DNA of 22,817 bases from a virus, in the IMG/VR virus record IMGVR_UViG_3300025102_000312, positions 1 through 22,817 of that record; one strand, given 5' to 3'. The translations under genes and the position numbers were made by a program. Below the pieces are notes generated by a model, which was not told the origin of the DNA, ran no database searches, and saw only the letters and a list, made by a program, of their open reading frames with translations. Below, one piece after another: positions 17,147-22,817 of the stretch. Position 1 is the stretch's first letter. Each line of letters begins with the position of its first letter.

Positions 17147-18665
17147 CTTCAGGGTTCATTTGCTGTTGTTGTTGCATTTGTTGTGCAGCCATAATTAGTT
17201 CTTCTCTATCAACTCTATCTCTAACTAATGTATCTGGGACTCCAAACTTTTTAGCTAAATGAACGGCTACTTCTTCTGAGCTTACAAGAAGATTTAATAT
17301 TTCTGGCCCAAATGTACCACCTACAAGTTGTAGGTATCTTGATATAGAAGATATATCCTGATTGGCTTGTGCTTGAGCTAATGGTGATATCGACCGTACT
17401 TTAATTTCTCTACCATTAACAGATGGTAATTCAATACGGCCTTGTTTTTTTAGAATGTAAACTACACGCTGTAATATGGGTTGTACCATTTCTGCTTGCA
17501 GTCTACCAAATGCTGACCCAATCCTTCTGGATAAATCAGCCATACGTTCTGCAACTTCTGTAGCAGATGCAGGTGTTTTATTGGGATCACCAAGCATGTC
17601 ATTATATAATGCACGCTTGATATTATTACGCATGTCACCAAGAACAAGCTGTGCTACATCAAAGTTGCCAGCATTTCTAATTGGCTGTAAACCTTGCGAT
17701 CCCATAGCTTTTGGAATAATAGTACCGGGAACAAGATTAATTGTATCAGTATTTATAATGCCATCATCATCCATCTGATAGATGCCAGAGATAGCCATTT
17801 GTGCATTTTCCAAAACCAGTTCAATGGTAAGGTTAGTAGTTTTGATTGCTGATAATGCATTGATTAATGGCCCTCTTCCATAAATTTCACCACTGGCTTT
17901 AGACCAGCGAAAACATATAAATGGGTTTGAACCTGTGCCTTTAAACAACTCTCTTTGTATTATTTCTTTTTCTGGAATATTAATTACAAAGAAATCAAAT
18001 CTATCTTCATTTAATTTTTCATAATTACGACAAACTATTTCGAGGATTTGTGTTTTTTCTTCTGGGTTGTTTTTGATCCTTTCACCTGTTTTTTCGGTAA
18101 AGTTTGCGTTTGGATACGCCACACGTAAGTCTTCATTTTTGAGTTTACGTTGCCTATAAACATGATCAATTTTATCATCTGGACCTGTATCAAGGTAAAC
18201 ACTCGGTAACGGAATAGCATTGAAACGTATCGGATTGATTGCATCACCTTCTTCGACGAGAAGGATGCCAGTTCCAACAGCAAGGTCCATAAACGATTCA
18301 TGTACTTCTTGCCCAAAGTTTGAATTTTGTATAACTTCAAATACATAATCAGTTACCTCGTCTAAAGTATTATTTACTTCATCACGCTCACCTTCTGGCA
18401 CTTCACTGCCAGCTAGAAGATCAGCCCAACGTGCAAAGTTTGGCACCAAGCCTGACTGTAAACGAGATGCAAATTCCTGTGTTCCTACAACAGCAGTCTC
18501 ATCAAAGATTTTATCATCTCTACGTTGACCCGGACTTTCATGGAAAAAGCTTTGCCTCATTGGAAGAGCATATTCAAAACACTCTTCAAACAATGACTCA
18601 AAAAGAACACGATTGGATTTAGCTTTATTAAAGCGTTCCAACATTTTTACAGCAGATGTATCCAT
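17133..18665 (-). CDS. Portal (head-to-tail connector) protein, T7 gp8-like
   Basis: A 510-aa portal of the T7 gp8/Head-tail_con type (PF12236). Marks are the N-terminal helical region with YALPMRQSFF and FDETAVVGTQEFASRLQSGLVP..RWADL (30-82), a GTGILLVEEG core (131-140), FRWSKASGEIYGRGP (252-266), and the wing/stem helix SATEVAERMADLSRRIGSAF (367-386). The C-terminus is Gln-rich (QQMQQQQQM). It forms the 12-subunit ring through which DNA enters and leaves. The ATG overlaps the stop of the upstream small gene as TAATG with only a weak Shine-Dalgarno. Length is close to T7 gp8 (536 aa). Confidence 0.92.
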   Translation of the reverse strand: MDTSAVKMLERFNKAKSNRVLFESLFEECFEYALPMRQSFFHESPGQRRDDKIFDETAVVGTQEFASRLQSGLVPNFARWADLLAGSEVPEGERDEVNNTLDEVTDYVFEVIQNSNFGQEVHESFMDLAVGTGILLVEEGDAINPIRFNAIPLPSVYLDTGPDDKIDHVYRQRKLKNEDLRVAYPNANFTEKTGERIKNNPEEKTQILEIVCRNYEKLNEDRFDFFVINIPEKEIIQRELFKGTGSNPFICFRWSKASGEIYGRGPLINALSAIKTTNLTIELVLENAQMAISGIYQMDDDGIINTDTINLVPGTIIPKAMGSQGLQPIRNAGNFDVAQLVLGDMRNNIKRALYNDMLGDPNKTPASATEVAERMADLSRRIGSAFGRLQAEMVQPILQRVVYILKKQGRIELPSVNGREIKVRSISPLAQAQANQDISSISRYLQLVGGTFGPEILNLLVSSEEVAVHLAKKFGVPDTLVRDRVDREELIMAAQQMQQQQQMNPEDVQQ

Positions 18666-18937
18666 TATAATGTCTCGTCAAAATAACCTATACCGCCACC
18701 CTGTCCAGTAATAAGAGATCTCTTTCCTTGCCCACCTCGTCTTTTTCTACGCATTTGCGTTTTTAATCTTTCCTGTCTTTCATCTGCTTGCTTTTGTTCC
18801 TGTTCAGCAATCATTTCTTTTTTCATTTGTCTAGCTTCTACTGCTTCAACAGGTTCAATAGGAGCTTTTGGTTTAGATATACCAAGCAAACCTCTTGTTA
18901 ATTTACGTATTGGTTTTAAAATTGAAGAGACACACAT
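18665..18937 (-). CDS. Small basic protein between terminase and portal
   Basis: A 90-aa protein starting MCVSSILKPIRKLTRGLLG. I chose the ATG at 18937 because AAGGAG precedes it; a longer reading from 19006 would overlap the terminase and lacks such a site. The middle is a charged helix (VEARQMKKEMIAEQEQKQADERQERL), followed by an Arg/Lys cluster (MRRKRRGGQGKRS) and a GQGGGIGYFDETL end. Proteins with an 'RG..SL(I/L)TG..GG.G' tail next to the portal are frequent in marine podoviruses from memory, of unknown function. Position suggests a role in packaging or portal assembly (inference). The end couples to the portal start through TAATG. Confidence 0.72.
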   Translation of the reverse strand: MCVSSILKPIRKLTRGLLGISKPKAPIEPVEAVEARQMKKEMIAEQEQKQADERQERLKTQMRRKRRGGQGKRSLITGQGGGIGYFDETL

Positions 18938-18947
18938 AGCTTTCTCC

Positions 18948-20468
18948 TTACATTCTTGACCATAAACCTTGCCTACGAGGTTTAGGTTTTCTGGAAAAGA
19001 CATCAAAATCCATCTTTGCCTGAAAAGGTTTAGTCGTCATTGATATATTTGACAAGATATTTCTACCTTCACCAGCACCCATCATCAAATATTGCAATGC
19101 ATCATGTATGTGTGAAAAGTGATTCTTTTCTGGTTTATCATCATATCGTTCTCCAGATACCTGCATACGTTTATACTGATACCCACCTTCAAAACCTTTG
19201 ATTAATGTACGACATCTAGGATCAACCAAGAATCCAGATTGACCATCAACCATTCTGTTAAGAGGCGCATTAACAGATTCAAGTCTCAATGATACATCGT
19301 TAGATTGTGCAGGGCGTGCATTTAATCCACAACCACGCAATATTTGAAATGGTGTTGATTCATCTGTCTGTGCGCGAAAGTCACCTGCTGGATCGCCAAT
19401 AATATTAACATCACAATCATTATATTTAGAAGCAAGTTCAACACGTAATACTTCACTAAACTTTACAATCCCCATGTCAAATGCAACTACTTCTTGCAAT
19501 ATAAGCCAACGCCCTCGAACCTTTTGTCCAAATACTGCTGCTGGTGTTAAACCAAAGTCAACACCAATAAATACTGGAATGCCAGATGCAATAGGTATTT
19601 CTTCTGTAGCTACATGCACCTCTGTTGCAAACATAGGATACACAGGCTTGCCATCCTTTATTGTTCCCAACTTATTCATTACATAAACATCAATCCAGCT
19701 TTTTGTTTTTCCTTTAACAATGTTTGAATAATAATCATCACGCATGTTCTTTATATTTTCAGCATCTTTATTCTTTGTGTATTCAGTTACATTTCCATCC
19801 TGATCTTTATATTCAAGCATAGCTGGGGGTTGATTAAAAAACTCCCAGTTATCTGGCTTAACAAGCATAGTAGCTTCTTCTCTAGGAATATGATCCGGTA
19901 TTGGAACTTCACCAGACATGATAGGCCACCAATGATCTTCTTCTGGTGCGTTGGTATCTGCAATTACACCTGTCCACGTACAGCCACCATCTTTCATAGA
20001 TGGATAACGACCAACACGCATAGTACAGGCATCAATAATAGATTTAGGTATTTCCCTAGCTTCATTAATCCAGATGCCAGTAAGTTCGAGTGATAAAAGT
20101 TTCTTTACATCTTCTGGTCTATCAAGAGCTAAAAACAAAACCTCTAAATCAATATCACCTTTTTTAATATGATGTGTATAGGGAACAGACCATAGAAACT
20201 TTCCCCACTCTTCTTCGGGAAACCAGTCTAACCATGTTTTGATTGTTGTTGTTCGTAGTTGTGGGTTGGTGTTTCTTATGATTGCCCATCTACTATGACG
20301 TTTACCATCTTCAGATTTCTGCTGCTGCAATGCTCTTCTAAACACCTCAACACAACAACCAACAGATTTACCAGAACCTACTGGCCCTCTAAGACCACGA
20401 AAGAATACATCAGACTTCATAAAGTCTTTTAATATATCTCCGTCAGGTTTGTATTTAAATTTGGTCAA
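18948..20468 (-). CDS. terL: Terminase large subunit (packaging ATPase/nuclease)
   Basis: About 506 aa. It pumps DNA into the prohead and cuts concatemers. Numbering from the TTG at 20468, the ATPase part has Walker A GPVGSGKS (28-35), Walker B GIWINEA with Glu136, and a coupling-type ADTNAP segment (170-175). The nuclease part has GVDFG with Asp304, a GDPAGD segment with Asp359, and HIHDA with Asp456, the expected three acidic residues of an RNase H-like fold. No upstream ATG fits. The TTG at 20468 has AAGGA 8 nt before it, while a TTG at 20486 has no Shine-Dalgarno. An ATG at 20420 is possible but would trim residues just before the ATPase domain. It overlaps the 64-aa gene by 14 nt. Confidence 0.93.
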   Translation of the reverse strand: MTKFKYKPDGDILKDFMKSDVFFRGLRGPVGSGKSVGCCVEVFRRALQQQKSEDGKRHSRWAIIRNTNPQLRTTTIKTWLDWFPEEEWGKFLWSVPYTHHIKKGDIDLEVLFLALDRPEDVKKLLSLELTGIWINEAREIPKSIIDACTMRVGRYPSMKDGGCTWTGVIADTNAPEEDHWWPIMSGEVPIPDHIPREEATMLVKPDNWEFFNQPPAMLEYKDQDGNVTEYTKNKDAENIKNMRDDYYSNIVKGKTKSWIDVYVMNKLGTIKDGKPVYPMFATEVHVATEEIPIASGIPVFIGVDFGLTPAAVFGQKVRGRWLILQEVVAFDMGIVKFSEVLRVELASKYNDCDVNIIGDPAGDFRAQTDESTPFQILRGCGLNARPAQSNDVSLRLESVNAPLNRMVDGQSGFLVDPRCRTLIKGFEGGYQYKRMQVSGERYDDKPEKNHFSHIHDALQYLMMGAGEGRNILSNISMTTKPFQAKMDFDVFSRKPKPRRQGLWSRM

Positions 20469-20649
20469 CCTTATGATCCTTGCCAAACTTTATCATACGC
20501 TCAATAACTTCTGGCCCTATGACAGCAATAACTTTATCAGCTTCACGATCTGTACAAAACTCTTTAGGATGGTGACAAAGATGTACCTTCTTCACCACTC
20601 TACGCAATACTTCACGTTCTTCTATTTTTAATGTATGTAAAAAACTCAT
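20455..20649 (-). CDS. 64-aa protein directly before terminase
   Basis: A helical, charged protein: EEREVLRRVVKKVHL at the front, HHPKEFCTDREADKVI in the middle and GPEVIERMIKFGKDHKVDQI at the end. I recall close relatives just upstream of the terminase in marine phages, without a known function. It starts at an ATGA overlap with the upstream gene and runs 14 nt into the terminase, so the three are probably translated together. Its slot is where a terminase small subunit often lies, but I see no helix-turn-helix and would not call it that. An HxCHH plus Cys pattern could bind metal, but this is weak. Confidence 0.7.
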   Translation of the reverse strand: MSFLHTLKIEEREVLRRVVKKVHLCHHPKEFCTDREADKVIAVIGPEVIERMIKFGKDHKVDQI

Positions 20650-20897
20650 CTGTACCTTTTGGCTATACGCCTTGCAGCTTTGGGCTGCTTTGAAAACTGT
20701 TTGCCTTTAGCAGTATCTTCACGCTTCTTTTTGCTGCTTGCAGCATATTGTGCGCTGCTCATAGCCCTAATAGCAGCCGCAGGTAGATAACGCTCACCAG
20801 TAGCTTTTGAACCTTGCGTTGATGGTTTACCAGATTTAGTTTGCCACTTCTGACCTGTCCATCTCATTAAGGATGTTTGTGATGGCGCACGTGCCAT
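20646..20897 (-). CDS. 83-aa basic small protein
   Basis: A Lys/Arg-rich protein with RWTGQKWQTKSGKPSTQ, then GERYLPAAAIRAMSSAQYAAS, then a basic tail SKKKREDTAKGKQFSKQP ending in RIAKRYR. From memory, proteins with 'G.RYLP..A...LS..E.AA...KK....GKQF..QP..IA.K...YR' occur in many marine phages, function unknown. The high charge suggests nucleic acid binding (inference). It starts in a TAATG overlap with the 48-aa gene and ends in an ATGA overlap with the 64-aa gene. Confidence 0.72.
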   Translation of the reverse strand: MARAPSQTSLMRWTGQKWQTKSGKPSTQGSKATGERYLPAAAIRAMSSAQYAASSKKKREDTAKGKQFSKQPKAARRIAKRYR

Positions 20898-21043
20898 TAC
20901 TTACCAACTTCTTTCTGTGCTGTTTTATGAGCCTGAGTAAATGATCGCCCCTGTTTCATAAGCTTACGCATTAAGACCATATGCTTTTTAGTATGATGCT
21001 TTGAGTGCTTTAAAAGCGTAGATTGTTGTCGTTTAGTAATCAC
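20897..21043 (-). CDS. 48-aa basic small protein with GTG start
   Basis: Translated by hand: (M)ITKRQQSTLLKHSKHH, then TKKHMVLMRKLMKQGRSFTQ and AHKTAQKEVGK. The GTG start overlaps the stop of the 55-aa gene (GTGA) and has a full GGAGG 9 nt upstream, which makes this start convincing. From memory the KHSKHHTKKHM..MRKLM..G.SFT.AHK.A...VGK pattern recurs in marine phages. It has many Lys and His residues and one long helix, with no known function. It ends in TAATG with the next gene. Confidence 0.78.
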   Translation of the reverse strand: MITKRQQSTLLKHSKHHTKKHMVLMRKLMKQGRSFTQAHKTAQKEVGK

Positions 21044-21207
21044 GATGTATAACCTCCACCTTTTGCTTTATAAGCCTTTGCAAGCATCTGTGCTTTACGC
21101 GCAGACCATTGACCCGGCGCACCACCCTTGCCACTAGCTTTTATTCTATTGAATAGACGCTTTCTCATGCCGGGCTTTGTATAGTTGCCAGCCTCATTGA
21201 CTGCCAT
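21040..21207 (-). CDS. 55-aa basic small protein
   Basis: Translated by hand: MAVNEAGNYTKPGMRKRLF, NRIKASGKGGAPGQWSAR, KAQMLAKAYKAKGGGYTS. I recognise this as a type often found in marine phage genomes: 'NEAGNYTKP.MRK.LF..IKA.GKGG.PGQWSARKAQ.LAK.YK..GGGY'. Function is unknown. The ordered SARKAQ(ML)AK motif and Gly/Lys-rich linker suggest a compact basic protein. The ATG lies 2 nt after the stop of the 42-aa gene (TAGTTATG), and the end overlaps the GTG of the 48-aa gene. Confidence 0.8.
   Translation of the reverse strand: MAVNEAGNYTKPGMRKRLFNRIKASGKGGAPGQWSARKAQMLAKAYKAKGGGYTS
21053..21057 (-). promoter_or_regulatory. Shine-Dalgarno that fixes the GTG start of the 48-aa gene
   Basis: GGAGG on the minus strand, 9 nt before the GTG at 21043. 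It lies inside the last codons of the 55-aa gene (the Gly-Gly-Gly-Tyr stretch), so the upstream protein's C-terminal glycines also encode the ribosome-binding site. Confidence 0.75.
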
Positions 21208-21209
21208 AA

Positions 21210-21338
21210 CTAAGCCTTTTTAGACTTCATAATTTTTTTCTTCAGTGCTTCAGGCAATGTTTTTTGTTTTGCAGTAAGCATTGATTTCTTTTTCGGACGA
21301 CCAACTTTCGATCCATAAGTTCCTTTTCCCATAGGCAT
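21210..21338 (-). CDS. 42-aa very basic protein with a GRP core
   Basis: Translated by hand: MPMGKGTYGSKVGRPKKKSM, LTAKQKTLPEALKKKIMKSK, KA. It has 13 Lys and 1 Arg against 1 Glu. Residues 13-18, GRPKKK, resemble the Gly-Arg-Pro core of AT-hook DNA-binding motifs, and the LPEALKKKIMKSK end is a short helix. From memory this 'MPMGKGTYGSK.GRP' type is common in marine phages, with unknown function. DNA minor-groove binding is inference. It starts in a TAATG overlap with the 84-aa gene. Confidence 0.8.
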   Translation of the reverse strand: MPMGKGTYGSKVGRPKKKSMLTAKQKTLPEALKKKIMKSKKA

Positions 21339-21592
21339 TATTTTTTACTCCTCTTCTTTTTAGCTGGTGCTTTACCACCAACCCACGCTTCATTAACATC
21401 TTTGGTAGACTTATCATCTGCCATAAAGCTACCATCTTCATCTCTTGCACGTTTTGATTTTACTACTACAGGTGGCTCAGTAAACAAACGCTGAGATTCG
21501 CTAGTATAAGTTGGGCCAGTAATCGCACGTCCATCAGGTAATATACATACTTCACCCTTGTATTCTGTACCATCACGATAATAATAAGCCAC
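21338..21592 (-). CDS. 84-aa small protein with basic C-terminus
   Basis: MAYYYRDGTEYKGEVCILPDG followed by RAITGPTYTSESQRLF, then a KRARDEDGSFMADDKSTKDVNEAW segment and a KKKRSKK end. The 'Y.ADD.STPDVNEA(W/Y)' pattern recurs in marine phage small proteins from memory. The front half is beta-like, the end charged and likely disordered. The start is GTG, sharing its G with the upstream stop (TAGTG). I cannot name a function; it belongs to the same packed cassette as its basic neighbours. Confidence 0.72.
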   Translation of the reverse strand: MAYYYRDGTEYKGEVCILPDGRAITGPTYTSESQRLFTEPPVVVKSKRARDEDGSFMADDKSTKDVNEAWVGGKAPAKKKRSKK

Positions 21593-21900
21593 TATGCTCT
21601 CGCTTTCTTTGCTTTGTTTCGTTTACTAATAGCCCTTGCTTTGGCTCTAGCATCAGCTTTTGAAGATGCACCCCACGCTCGAAGGGATAATAACAATCTT
21701 GTAGGTCTGCCTTTTGAATCACGTTCTGGCCCACTATTGCCTGCCATCCTTGATAGGAAGCTCGCCCTTCTTGGGTTGTCTCCTGACTTTACTGGCGGCT
21801 TGAGAGTTCCTTCTTTGTAAGAGGCGCGACCGGCAGCGTTGAGACCACCTTTGGGGTTCTTTCCTGCTTTTCTTGTCCATGCTGGTGTCTTTGGTGCCAT
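21592..21900 (-). CDS. 102-aa basic small protein with GGLN motif
   Basis: The N-terminus reads TPAWTRKAGKNPKGGLNAAGRASY, then DNPRRASFLSRMAGNSG, then SKGRPTRLLLSLRAWG and an Ala/Lys/Arg-rich tail. I recall a family with 'W.RKEGK(N/S)..GGLN..GR.SY......NPR(R/K).SF..RM......' (possibly DUF6321, not certain) in phages and some bacteria, function unknown. KGRPTR (63-68) is a second GRP core in this cassette, in the same neighbourhood as the 42-aa protein. It starts in a TAATG overlap with the 272-aa gene and ends in TAGTG. Confidence 0.75.
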   Translation of the reverse strand: MAPKTPAWTRKAGKNPKGGLNAAGRASYKEGTLKPPVKSGDNPRRASFLSRMAGNSGPERDSKGRPTRLLLSLRAWGASSKADARAKARAISKRNKAKKARA

Positions 21901-22718
21901 TAATCTATTGTGCTTTCATCTGCAATAGCGCGTTGAGCATCGTTCATTCTTCCATACTCATCATTGCCATCCATAGGAAATGGATCTTTACCTTTTACTT
22001 GAAGAATACGCATTGTTGAAAGATCACGTTTTAATCTAGGATCAACATTATCATTTGTCTGTGCTTCGGCTGGTGTAACTAACATGCTAGTAAAGGAATC
22101 CCATAGCGTCTTACGCTTGTTAGTCATCGGCCCTTCAAATACAAATGTTTCAGCTTCAGGATCTATGTCATCATCATAATCCATATCTACAACTTGCATT
22201 TGCTCGGGAAGGGTGATGTTTACTTTTAGTGTATCCTGACCACCTTCAGGCATCATAACACCGCCCATATATCTAGCTATAGGATATATATCACCAACAC
22301 TCCTAGCTTCATTTACAGATTCCATTGCAGCATCAAATCCACCTCTAGGTTCAAAATCATATAAATCAAATATCTTTATACGACCATCTATCTTTTGAAT
22401 ACCAAACTGACCCAAAGATGTTCTGATCTGATCACCTACAGATTCTATTTCATAGTTCTTTTCAAAAATAGAAACATCCTTAAAAAACTTTTGAGCATCT
22501 TCATACCCAATGCTGCCTACCTGACCCTCCTGTAAATCAGGATATTTATCATTTATCAAAAGACGTAATGCTTCCAATGCCTCACCAGAAACATTAGTTT
22601 CATTAATCTCTGAATCAAAAGGATCCATAAACTCAGGAAGCAAAGAGTTAATAACCCCTCGAAGATAGAAGTTCTTATGCATCGGCATGTCTTTGAGCAT
22701 GTCATTCAGAACTGGCAT
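21900..22718 (-). CDS. 272-aa protein of unknown function with DxYD motif
   Basis: I chose the ATG at 22718 (MPVLNDMLKDMPMHKNF) because AAGGG precedes it and it overlaps the end of the upstream gene; a TTG at 22784 lies in sequence better read in another frame. The central part has GSIGYEDA, SLGQFG (101-106), DGRIKIFDLYDFEP (111-124) and YPIARYMGG (145-153), a pattern I recall in hypothetical proteins of marine phages. DLYD recalls the Asp-x-Tyr-Asp catalytic core of colicin M-type lipid II phosphatases, but the His/Arg partners are not in the usual place, so this is weak. An acidic stretch (DMDYDDDIDPEAE) and a hydrophobic SFTSMLVTPAEAQ follow. No function is assigned. Confidence 0.7.
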   Translation of the reverse strand: MPVLNDMLKDMPMHKNFYLRGVINSLLPEFMDPFDSEINETNVSGEALEALRLLINDKYPDLQEGQVGSIGYEDAQKFFKDVSIFEKNYEIESVGDQIRTSLGQFGIQKIDGRIKIFDLYDFEPRGGFDAAMESVNEARSVGDIYPIARYMGGVMMPEGGQDTLKVNITLPEQMQVVDMDYDDDIDPEAETFVFEGPMTNKRKTLWDSFTSMLVTPAEAQTNDNVDPRLKRDLSTMRILQVKGKDPFPMDGNDEYGRMNDAQRAIADESTID

Positions 22719-22817
22719 TTTGCCCTTACCCACAAAATAAAAAATAACAATGTTATTAATGGATGAATGATTACAAACAACCAAACATTTATTTCCTGAT
22801 AAGTCAATACTGAATAA
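22706..22817 (-). CDS. Small membrane protein, C-terminal end (cut by window edge)
   Basis: A frame open from the right edge to a TGA at 22706-22708 reads ..YSVLTYQEINVWLFVIIH then PLITLLFFILWVRAKCQF. The stretch from VWLFV to ILWV is a clear single membrane segment with a positive, short cytoplasmic-type tail. It overlaps the start of the 272-aa gene by 13 nt, as neighbouring genes here do. The start is probably outside the window; a TTG at 22807 is possible but lacks a Shine-Dalgarno. Small one-segment proteins in phages are sometimes holins or spanin parts, but nothing here proves that. Confidence 0.6.
   Translation of the reverse strand, partial: YSVLTYQEINVWLFVIIHPLITLLFFILWVRAKCQF

Follow-up and report, generated by a model that had tools for sequence, protein, structure and literature searches.

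The window analysed here is the whole stretch of 22,817 nt, a partial record of a T7-like marine podophage (IMGVR_UViG_3300025102_000312) whose late genes lie on the minus strand. PHROG matches on that strand comprise portal, major head protein, tail proteins, internal virion proteins and tail fibre. The region studied is transcribed in the order U294, A102, B84, C42, D55, E48, F83, g64, terL, n113 and portal. Six open reading frames, A102 to F83, form a cassette on the minus strand at 20646–21900, with the lengths (102, 84, 42, 55, 48 and 83 aa) given in the original prediction. The prediction placed them just before the terminase, and the cassette does lead toward terL, the terminase large subunit gene (18948–20486, minus strand; phrog_2, E 4e-22), but a 64-aa gene, g64 (20455–20649, minus strand), intervenes between F83 and terL. 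The g64 product is not basic (+2) and belongs to a 101-member family; its gene overlaps F83 by 4 nt, and F–g64 junctions fall within −5 to 25 nt in 30 of 37 loci. On the other side lies U294 (21900–22784, minus strand), which encodes an acidic protein of 294 aa, overlaps A102 by 1 nt and has 33 relatives, with no family match in Pfam or PHROG. Its TTG start is uncertain: the ORF may extend or begin later. U–A junctions are tight in 6/13 loci. Past terL, the 113-aa ORF n113 (18665–19006) overlaps the end of the terminase gene by 59 nt; it resembles phrog_1320 (host range and adsorption protein) only weakly, at E 4e-4, and its C-terminus, RRSLxTGxGGGIGYY, is conserved.

Junctions from U294 through g64 measure, in order, −1, −1, −1, +2, −4, −1 and −4 nt, and this region is therefore likely to be one coupled transcript. 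A promoter scan found 10 sites against 11.6 in shuffled sequence, no excess, and terminator-like sites numbered 5 against 2.8 expected, none of them between A102 and F83. All six cassette ORFs are under purifying selection (median pN/pS 0.07–0.19 against relatives), and a single internal stop was met in about 180 comparisons. Given these values and the spacing of −4 to +2 nt, we conclude that the six ORFs are real, conserved genes.

Five of the six products are strongly basic, with net charge and pI of +22 and 12.0 for A, +13 and 10.8 for C, +11 and 10.9 for D, +12 and 11.8 for E, and +18 and 11.6 for F. B84 reaches only +4 and 9.2 and is basic solely in its last residues, so the description of each protein as Lys/Arg-rich or basic-tailed was correct. 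Net charge per residue is 0.20–0.31 for A, C, D, E and F; 22 spurious opposite-strand ORFs of similar size gave a mean of 0.037 (sd 0.067, maximum 0.19). The reported composition of C42 (13 Lys, 1 Arg, 1 Glu and a GRPKKK stretch) and the KGRPTR motif of A102 are both confirmed.

Family members were counted by iterative HMM searches over the ORFs of 340 sequences (the window and fetched loci), giving 157 for A, 163 for B, 76 for C, 227 for D, 42 for E and 226 for F. Loci are the best matches of each scan, sorted into 210 groups by shared exact 100-mers, so the numbers do not amount to a survey. The core of the set is the pair D and F. F was also found in 68 of 71 independent loci seeded with D alone, and D in 44 of 46 seeded with F, against a baseline of 3 in 39 for B-seeded loci (Fisher p ~6e-22). 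D is present in 61% of A-seeded loci, with greater variability for C, B and E. Phages also carry fused genes, D–F (132 aa) and F–A (187 aa), and in others F is joined to a C-terminal region that is tape-measure-like. These D–F and A–F fusions, together with an arrangement in which D and F share a strand with D first or fused to F in 141/141 loci, tie the cassette families to one another.

Whether the set stays together next to terL has a mixed answer. D and F are together in 95% of loci, and F lies on the terL strand in all 74 loci holding both; however, F is ≤400 bp upstream of terL in only 32 of these 74, and the presence of A, B, C and E varies from locus to locus. In HTVC035P the cassette genes close a block that has no annotated terL in its vicinity. 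The expectation that the cassette recurs among marine phages was borne out, on the late strand and translationally coupled toward terL. By gene order, the closest cultivated relative is Pelagibacter phage Hodr, with A, C, E, fused D and F, g64, terL and portal. Phages of the HMO-2011 type encode a protein of about 150 aa with a C-terminal hydrophobic stretch between D and F (L081, 3363–3824; L082, 6470–6925), and the D–F gap is near 463 nt in several of their loci. SAR11 single-cell genomes (L385, L389, L392, L393, L395–L397, L399 and L400) contain prophage-like loci in which a T7-type terL is followed by D and F and, about 3.5 kb on, by an integrase.

D55 (21040–21207, minus strand; 55 aa; phrog_17747, PHROG E 8e-31) and F83 (20646–20897, minus strand; 83 aa; phrog_14910, PHROG E 8e-27) correspond to the N- and C-terminal halves of a DUF5872-like protein. 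Scanning bacterial and archaeal genomes with the D alignment returned fused D–F proteins of ~120–190 aa in Hymenobacter, Spirosoma, Fibrella, Rubrobacter, Corallococcus, Acidobacteria and others, and the one-piece homology is plain (21 invariant columns in 22 sequences). Several of these proteins match DUF5872 across both halves. Only two relatives pass the Pfam cut-off of 27.5 bits, and narrowly (L401, 28.6; G007, 27.6), most others scoring 19–26, so the sequence link to the named family is borderline; D55 or F83 alone gave no match to the DUF5872 model at E≤1. An AlphaFold2 model of the fused D–F protein is moderately confident (pLDDT 86.4, pTM 0.55). By eye, D had also seemed akin to the ACYHKVKSRY module, and F to the SLRDWF module, of S-SM1 GC119, a likeness that we dropped when hhalign returned probabilities of ~1 or below.

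The fused gene is present in one copy per genome in 19 of 80 genomes of the family of the Hymenobacter isolate, 17 of 39 of the Rubrobacter class and 25 of 76 of the Corallococcus family. Many other genome-contig matches are phage contigs binned into MAGs and are uninformative on hosts. Short flanks fetched around the bacterial genes gave no match to cassette, terL, portal or head-protein models. Their neighbours include DUF3140, Hva1_TUDOR, hemerythrin, CsbD and OsmC proteins; DUF3140 recurs in 6 of 57 loci and in L404 and L406, and the other stress-type neighbours are single examples. One Verrucomicrobia record has A directly before D–F. Among SAR11-family genomes, 12 of 118 carry the reverse fusion, F–D, and a thirteenth has the prophage pair. 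Eleven of the F–D loci (138–155 aa; L417 4734–5150, with equivalents in L398, L408, L409, L415, L418 and L422–L426) are clustered on the chromosome with genes for DUF1365, CMAS, DUF3833 and TspO proteins and for short-chain dehydrogenases. In Rhodobacter, the singlet-oxygen response includes a comparable DUF1365/Cfa/DUF3833 cluster; the photolyase expected beside the SAR11 cluster was not found upstream.

A102 (21592–21900, minus strand; 102 aa, pI 12; 157 relatives, pN/pS 0.11) is a full-length, stand-alone member of DUF6321 (PF19846; Pfam E 6e-21), scoring 75.3 bits against a cut-off of 28.5 over model positions 1–72 of 72. It also falls in phrog_4689, which, like the PHROGs of D, E and F, is annotated as function unknown. 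DUF6321 was matched in 487 to 536 phage records and is named in no paper in the literature searched. The AlphaFold2 model of A102 is a compact helical fold, predicted with confidence (pLDDT 89.5, pTM 0.76). Two family A cysteines, one after SF and one near the C-terminal Trp, are both present in 26 sequences and both absent from 75, or vice versa, with none mixed (counts uncorrected for relatedness of the sequences); their occurring together or not at all suggests that they are in contact. Foldseek gave no match at E≤0.001 for the A or the fused D–F model, and the best VIA-align Z of 2.4–2.6 over 44–56 residues is not meaningful; these results show neither novelty of the two folds nor its absence. 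PDB sequence searches with A, D and F found no matches, and NCBIfam yielded nothing useful.

B84 (21338–21592, minus strand; 84 aa, GTG start, 163-member family) is mildly basic with a Lys-rich tail and has a conserved segment, RARxxxGxxxADDPSTPDVNEAW; its family often occurs without other cassette genes (D in 7% and F in 7% of B-seeded loci). A segment of this type, RARDxxGxFxxDDPxTPDxNEAW, also forms the C-terminus of a protein that has a phage tail assembly chaperone domain (L274, 5284–6189), and the B84 segment may therefore be a mobile tail segment. C42 (21210–21338, minus strand; 42 aa, Lys-rich) is homologous to gp30 of pelagiphage HTVC022P. E48 (20897–21043, minus strand; 48 aa, GTG start, phrog_31838) is basic and retains five His and several Met in an invariant arrangement, HSKHHTxKHMxxMrxxM...AHK, that may be a metal site.

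Evidence on where such proteins act comes mainly from T4-like cyanophages, in which DUF6321 is the C-terminal domain of proteins mostly encoded between or beside the terminase genes gp16 and gp17. Two of them begin like T4 internal proteins: P-SSM7_194 with MKTYSQFIEEG and S-SZBM1_192 with MKTFKQYITEA, against MKTYQEFIAEA for ipII and ipIII in the T4 record. The start pattern MK[TS][FY]..[FYL][ILV].E was met in 5 of 7443 ORFs scanned, namely T4 ipII, T4 ipIII, P-SSM7_194, S-SZBM1_191 and S-SZBM1_192. IPIII is targeted through residues 4 and 7 and processed through residues 8 and 10, and gp21 cleaves after L/I-X-E (PMC9026906). P-SSM7_194 matches all four IPIII positions (Y4, F7, I8, E10). A clear T4-type targeting sequence is present in only 2 of the 14 DUF6321 proteins examined (P-SSM7_194 and S-SZBM1_192), and these targeting-like starts are new here. 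Glu stands at −1/−2 of the module start AWT(R/K)K in 11 of 13 cyanomyovirus proteins against a background of 0.15, a count that is support rather than proof, the cyanophage sequences being related to one another; this Glu would be a putative cut site of a T4-type prohead protease. Past its targeting motif, P-SSM7_194 has a segment, GLWDNIHAKRKR, resembling a small basic protein encoded beside A in P-SCSP1k, KBS-P-1A and HTVC022P. A small basic family similar to this segment, GLYANIHAKRKRIxAGSGEKMRKxG, adjoins DUF6321 in T7-like pelagi- and cyanophages (L497, 6128–6274; L346, 4201–4377; L089, 3750–3905). S-SZBM1_191 (L498, 10312–10629), next to the DUF6321 gene, starts MKSFKSFLSES and is a candidate head cargo.

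Mass-spectrometric evidence on DUF6321 proteins in virions is split. S-CREM2 gp137, which matches DUF6321 at 40.8 bits, was detected in the virion proteome by 4 unique peptides at 4.1% coverage (PMC10665884, Table 3), a weak detection whose peptides may derive from the N-terminal part. S-SZBM1_192 is absent from the 30 proteins detected in S-SZBM1 virions (PMC9146016, Table 1). GenBank flags orthologues of GC119 just as it does those of the S-SM1 neck and cytidylyltransferase proteins, and the S-E7 annotation of a GC119 orthologue reads structural. Gene order and fusions in other phages also speak for a head role: HTVC022P has C and A between its scaffold and capsid genes, P-SCSP1k has A directly after its capsid gene, and some phages join F to regions that are tape-measure-like or minor-head-like. 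The P-SCSP1u cryo-EM paper models capsid, portal, adaptor, nozzle and fibre only, and an unordered interior protein would be missed. A102 (start MAPKTPAWTRK) and the other window proteins lack a T4-type targeting sequence, and none of the window genes scanned matched a prohead protease.

Taken together, the targeting-like starts, the Glu sites, the S-CREM2 detection, the gene order in HTVC022P and P-SCSP1k, the F fusions, and the tight junctions, shared strand and purifying selection of the cassette favour a role in the head, and we give an even chance to the cassette encoding small, folded, basic internal-head proteins that travel with the packaged DNA; virion evidence concerns the A family, the others being drawn in by association. 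The proteins would be made late, with synthesis coupled to that of the terminase. They would join the head as it assembles or attach to the genome during packaging, and would then accompany the DNA, which they would probably coat or protect and with which they may be ejected. As for D and F, they would be two subunits of one DUF5872-like protein, probably acting as a complex. For T4-like cyanophages, the A module would be a cargo domain of larger proteins, with the protease-type Glu site just before it; for podophages such as this one, it would be a separate small gene. That this phage's own proteins lie in the head, that all six act at the same place and that they bind DNA is what we infer. 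Counting against the head reading, DUF5872-like proteins are also encoded in bacterial chromosomes with no phage genes close by, and a head role is accordingly not their sole role.

The same proteins could instead be late helpers in DNA binding or packaging that work inside the cell, coating replicated phage DNA or loading it on the terminase, without being retained in the virion. The operon position directly ahead of terL, the basic charge and the missing S-SZBM1_192 would fit such helpers, but the targeting-like sequences and Glu sites on cyanophage DUF6321 proteins, the presence of S-CREM2 gp137 in virions and the many phages with the set away from terL argue against them, and we consider this unlikely. 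Rather improbable is a role in host takeover or DNA protection like that of T4 IPI, with ejected proteins acting in the next host against nucleases or damage and DNA compaction secondary. T4 internal proteins are indeed ejected (PMC9026906), in some bacteria the cellular relatives of D–F and A have stress-type neighbours (DUF3140, Hva1_TUDOR, hemerythrin, CsbD), and the SAR11 F–D gene has its DUF1365/CMAS/DUF3833/TspO cluster; yet the families are spread over very different hosts, which speaks against a host-specific inhibitor, and the stress context amounts to a handful of loci.

The weakest reading is the AT-hook. Among family A sequences with GxPTR, x is K in 20, R in 18 and E in 4, and GRP[RK] occurs in 0 of 60; family C has GRP in 24 of 39 relatives and GRP[RK] in 6 of 39, around a constant core of LTxKQKtLPxxLxxKI. 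GRP is thus not the conserved core of either family, and an AT-hook is unsupported for A, where we rejected it because the Arg varies and the predicted compact fold is not a hook-bearing disordered tail, and weak for C. Despite the GRPKKK of C42, its GRP-bearing relatives and a window GC of 38%, a nucleoid-binding AT-hook set is highly improbable given the variable Arg of A, the lack of GRP in families E and F, and the predicted compact fold of A with its covarying Cys pair. The original prediction was right about the cassette and, at least for family A, wrong about AT-hooks; its packaging role was roughly right, in that a head or packaging role is favoured, with A relatives in head gene blocks and one A-bearing protein in a virion.

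More broadly, it is conceivable, though less likely than not, that small, folded, basic modules, partly kin to cellular DUF5872 and DUF6321 proteins, are a common toolkit of marine phages and are loaded into heads with the genome, as protease-releasable cargo strings in T4-like phages with a prohead protease and as separate genes by the terminase or capsid in podophages. If true, this toolkit would serve the commonest viruses of the ocean as a chromatin-like system for packaging or protecting the genome. Marine phage genomes are full of small basic ORFs of unknown function. With one family tied to capsid targeting and a virion, and two tied to a single bacterial protein, head cargo becomes a testable hypothesis for phages of SAR11, SAR116, Roseobacter and cyanobacteria. 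If right, it would show how such phages condense or protect their genomes, with a protein module common to phages and bacteria.

Several known systems bear comparison with the cassette. The GRP tripeptide of AT-hook proteins is found in A102 and C42, yet neither family has it as its conserved core. The two halves of DUF5872 align with D and F, which in most phages are split into two adjacent genes; DUF5872 (PF19197) is named in one paper in the literature searched, where it is listed in an algal giant virus gene table (PMC12085832). A102 is a full-length DUF6321 member but a stand-alone small protein, whereas most T4-like cyanophages carry the domain at the C-terminus of larger proteins. T4 IPI, IPII and IPIII are likewise small, and their N-terminal targeting motif recurs on two T4-like cyanophage DUF6321 proteins; however, they are unrelated to DUF6321 proteins in sequence, and the podophage versions do without the targeting sequence.
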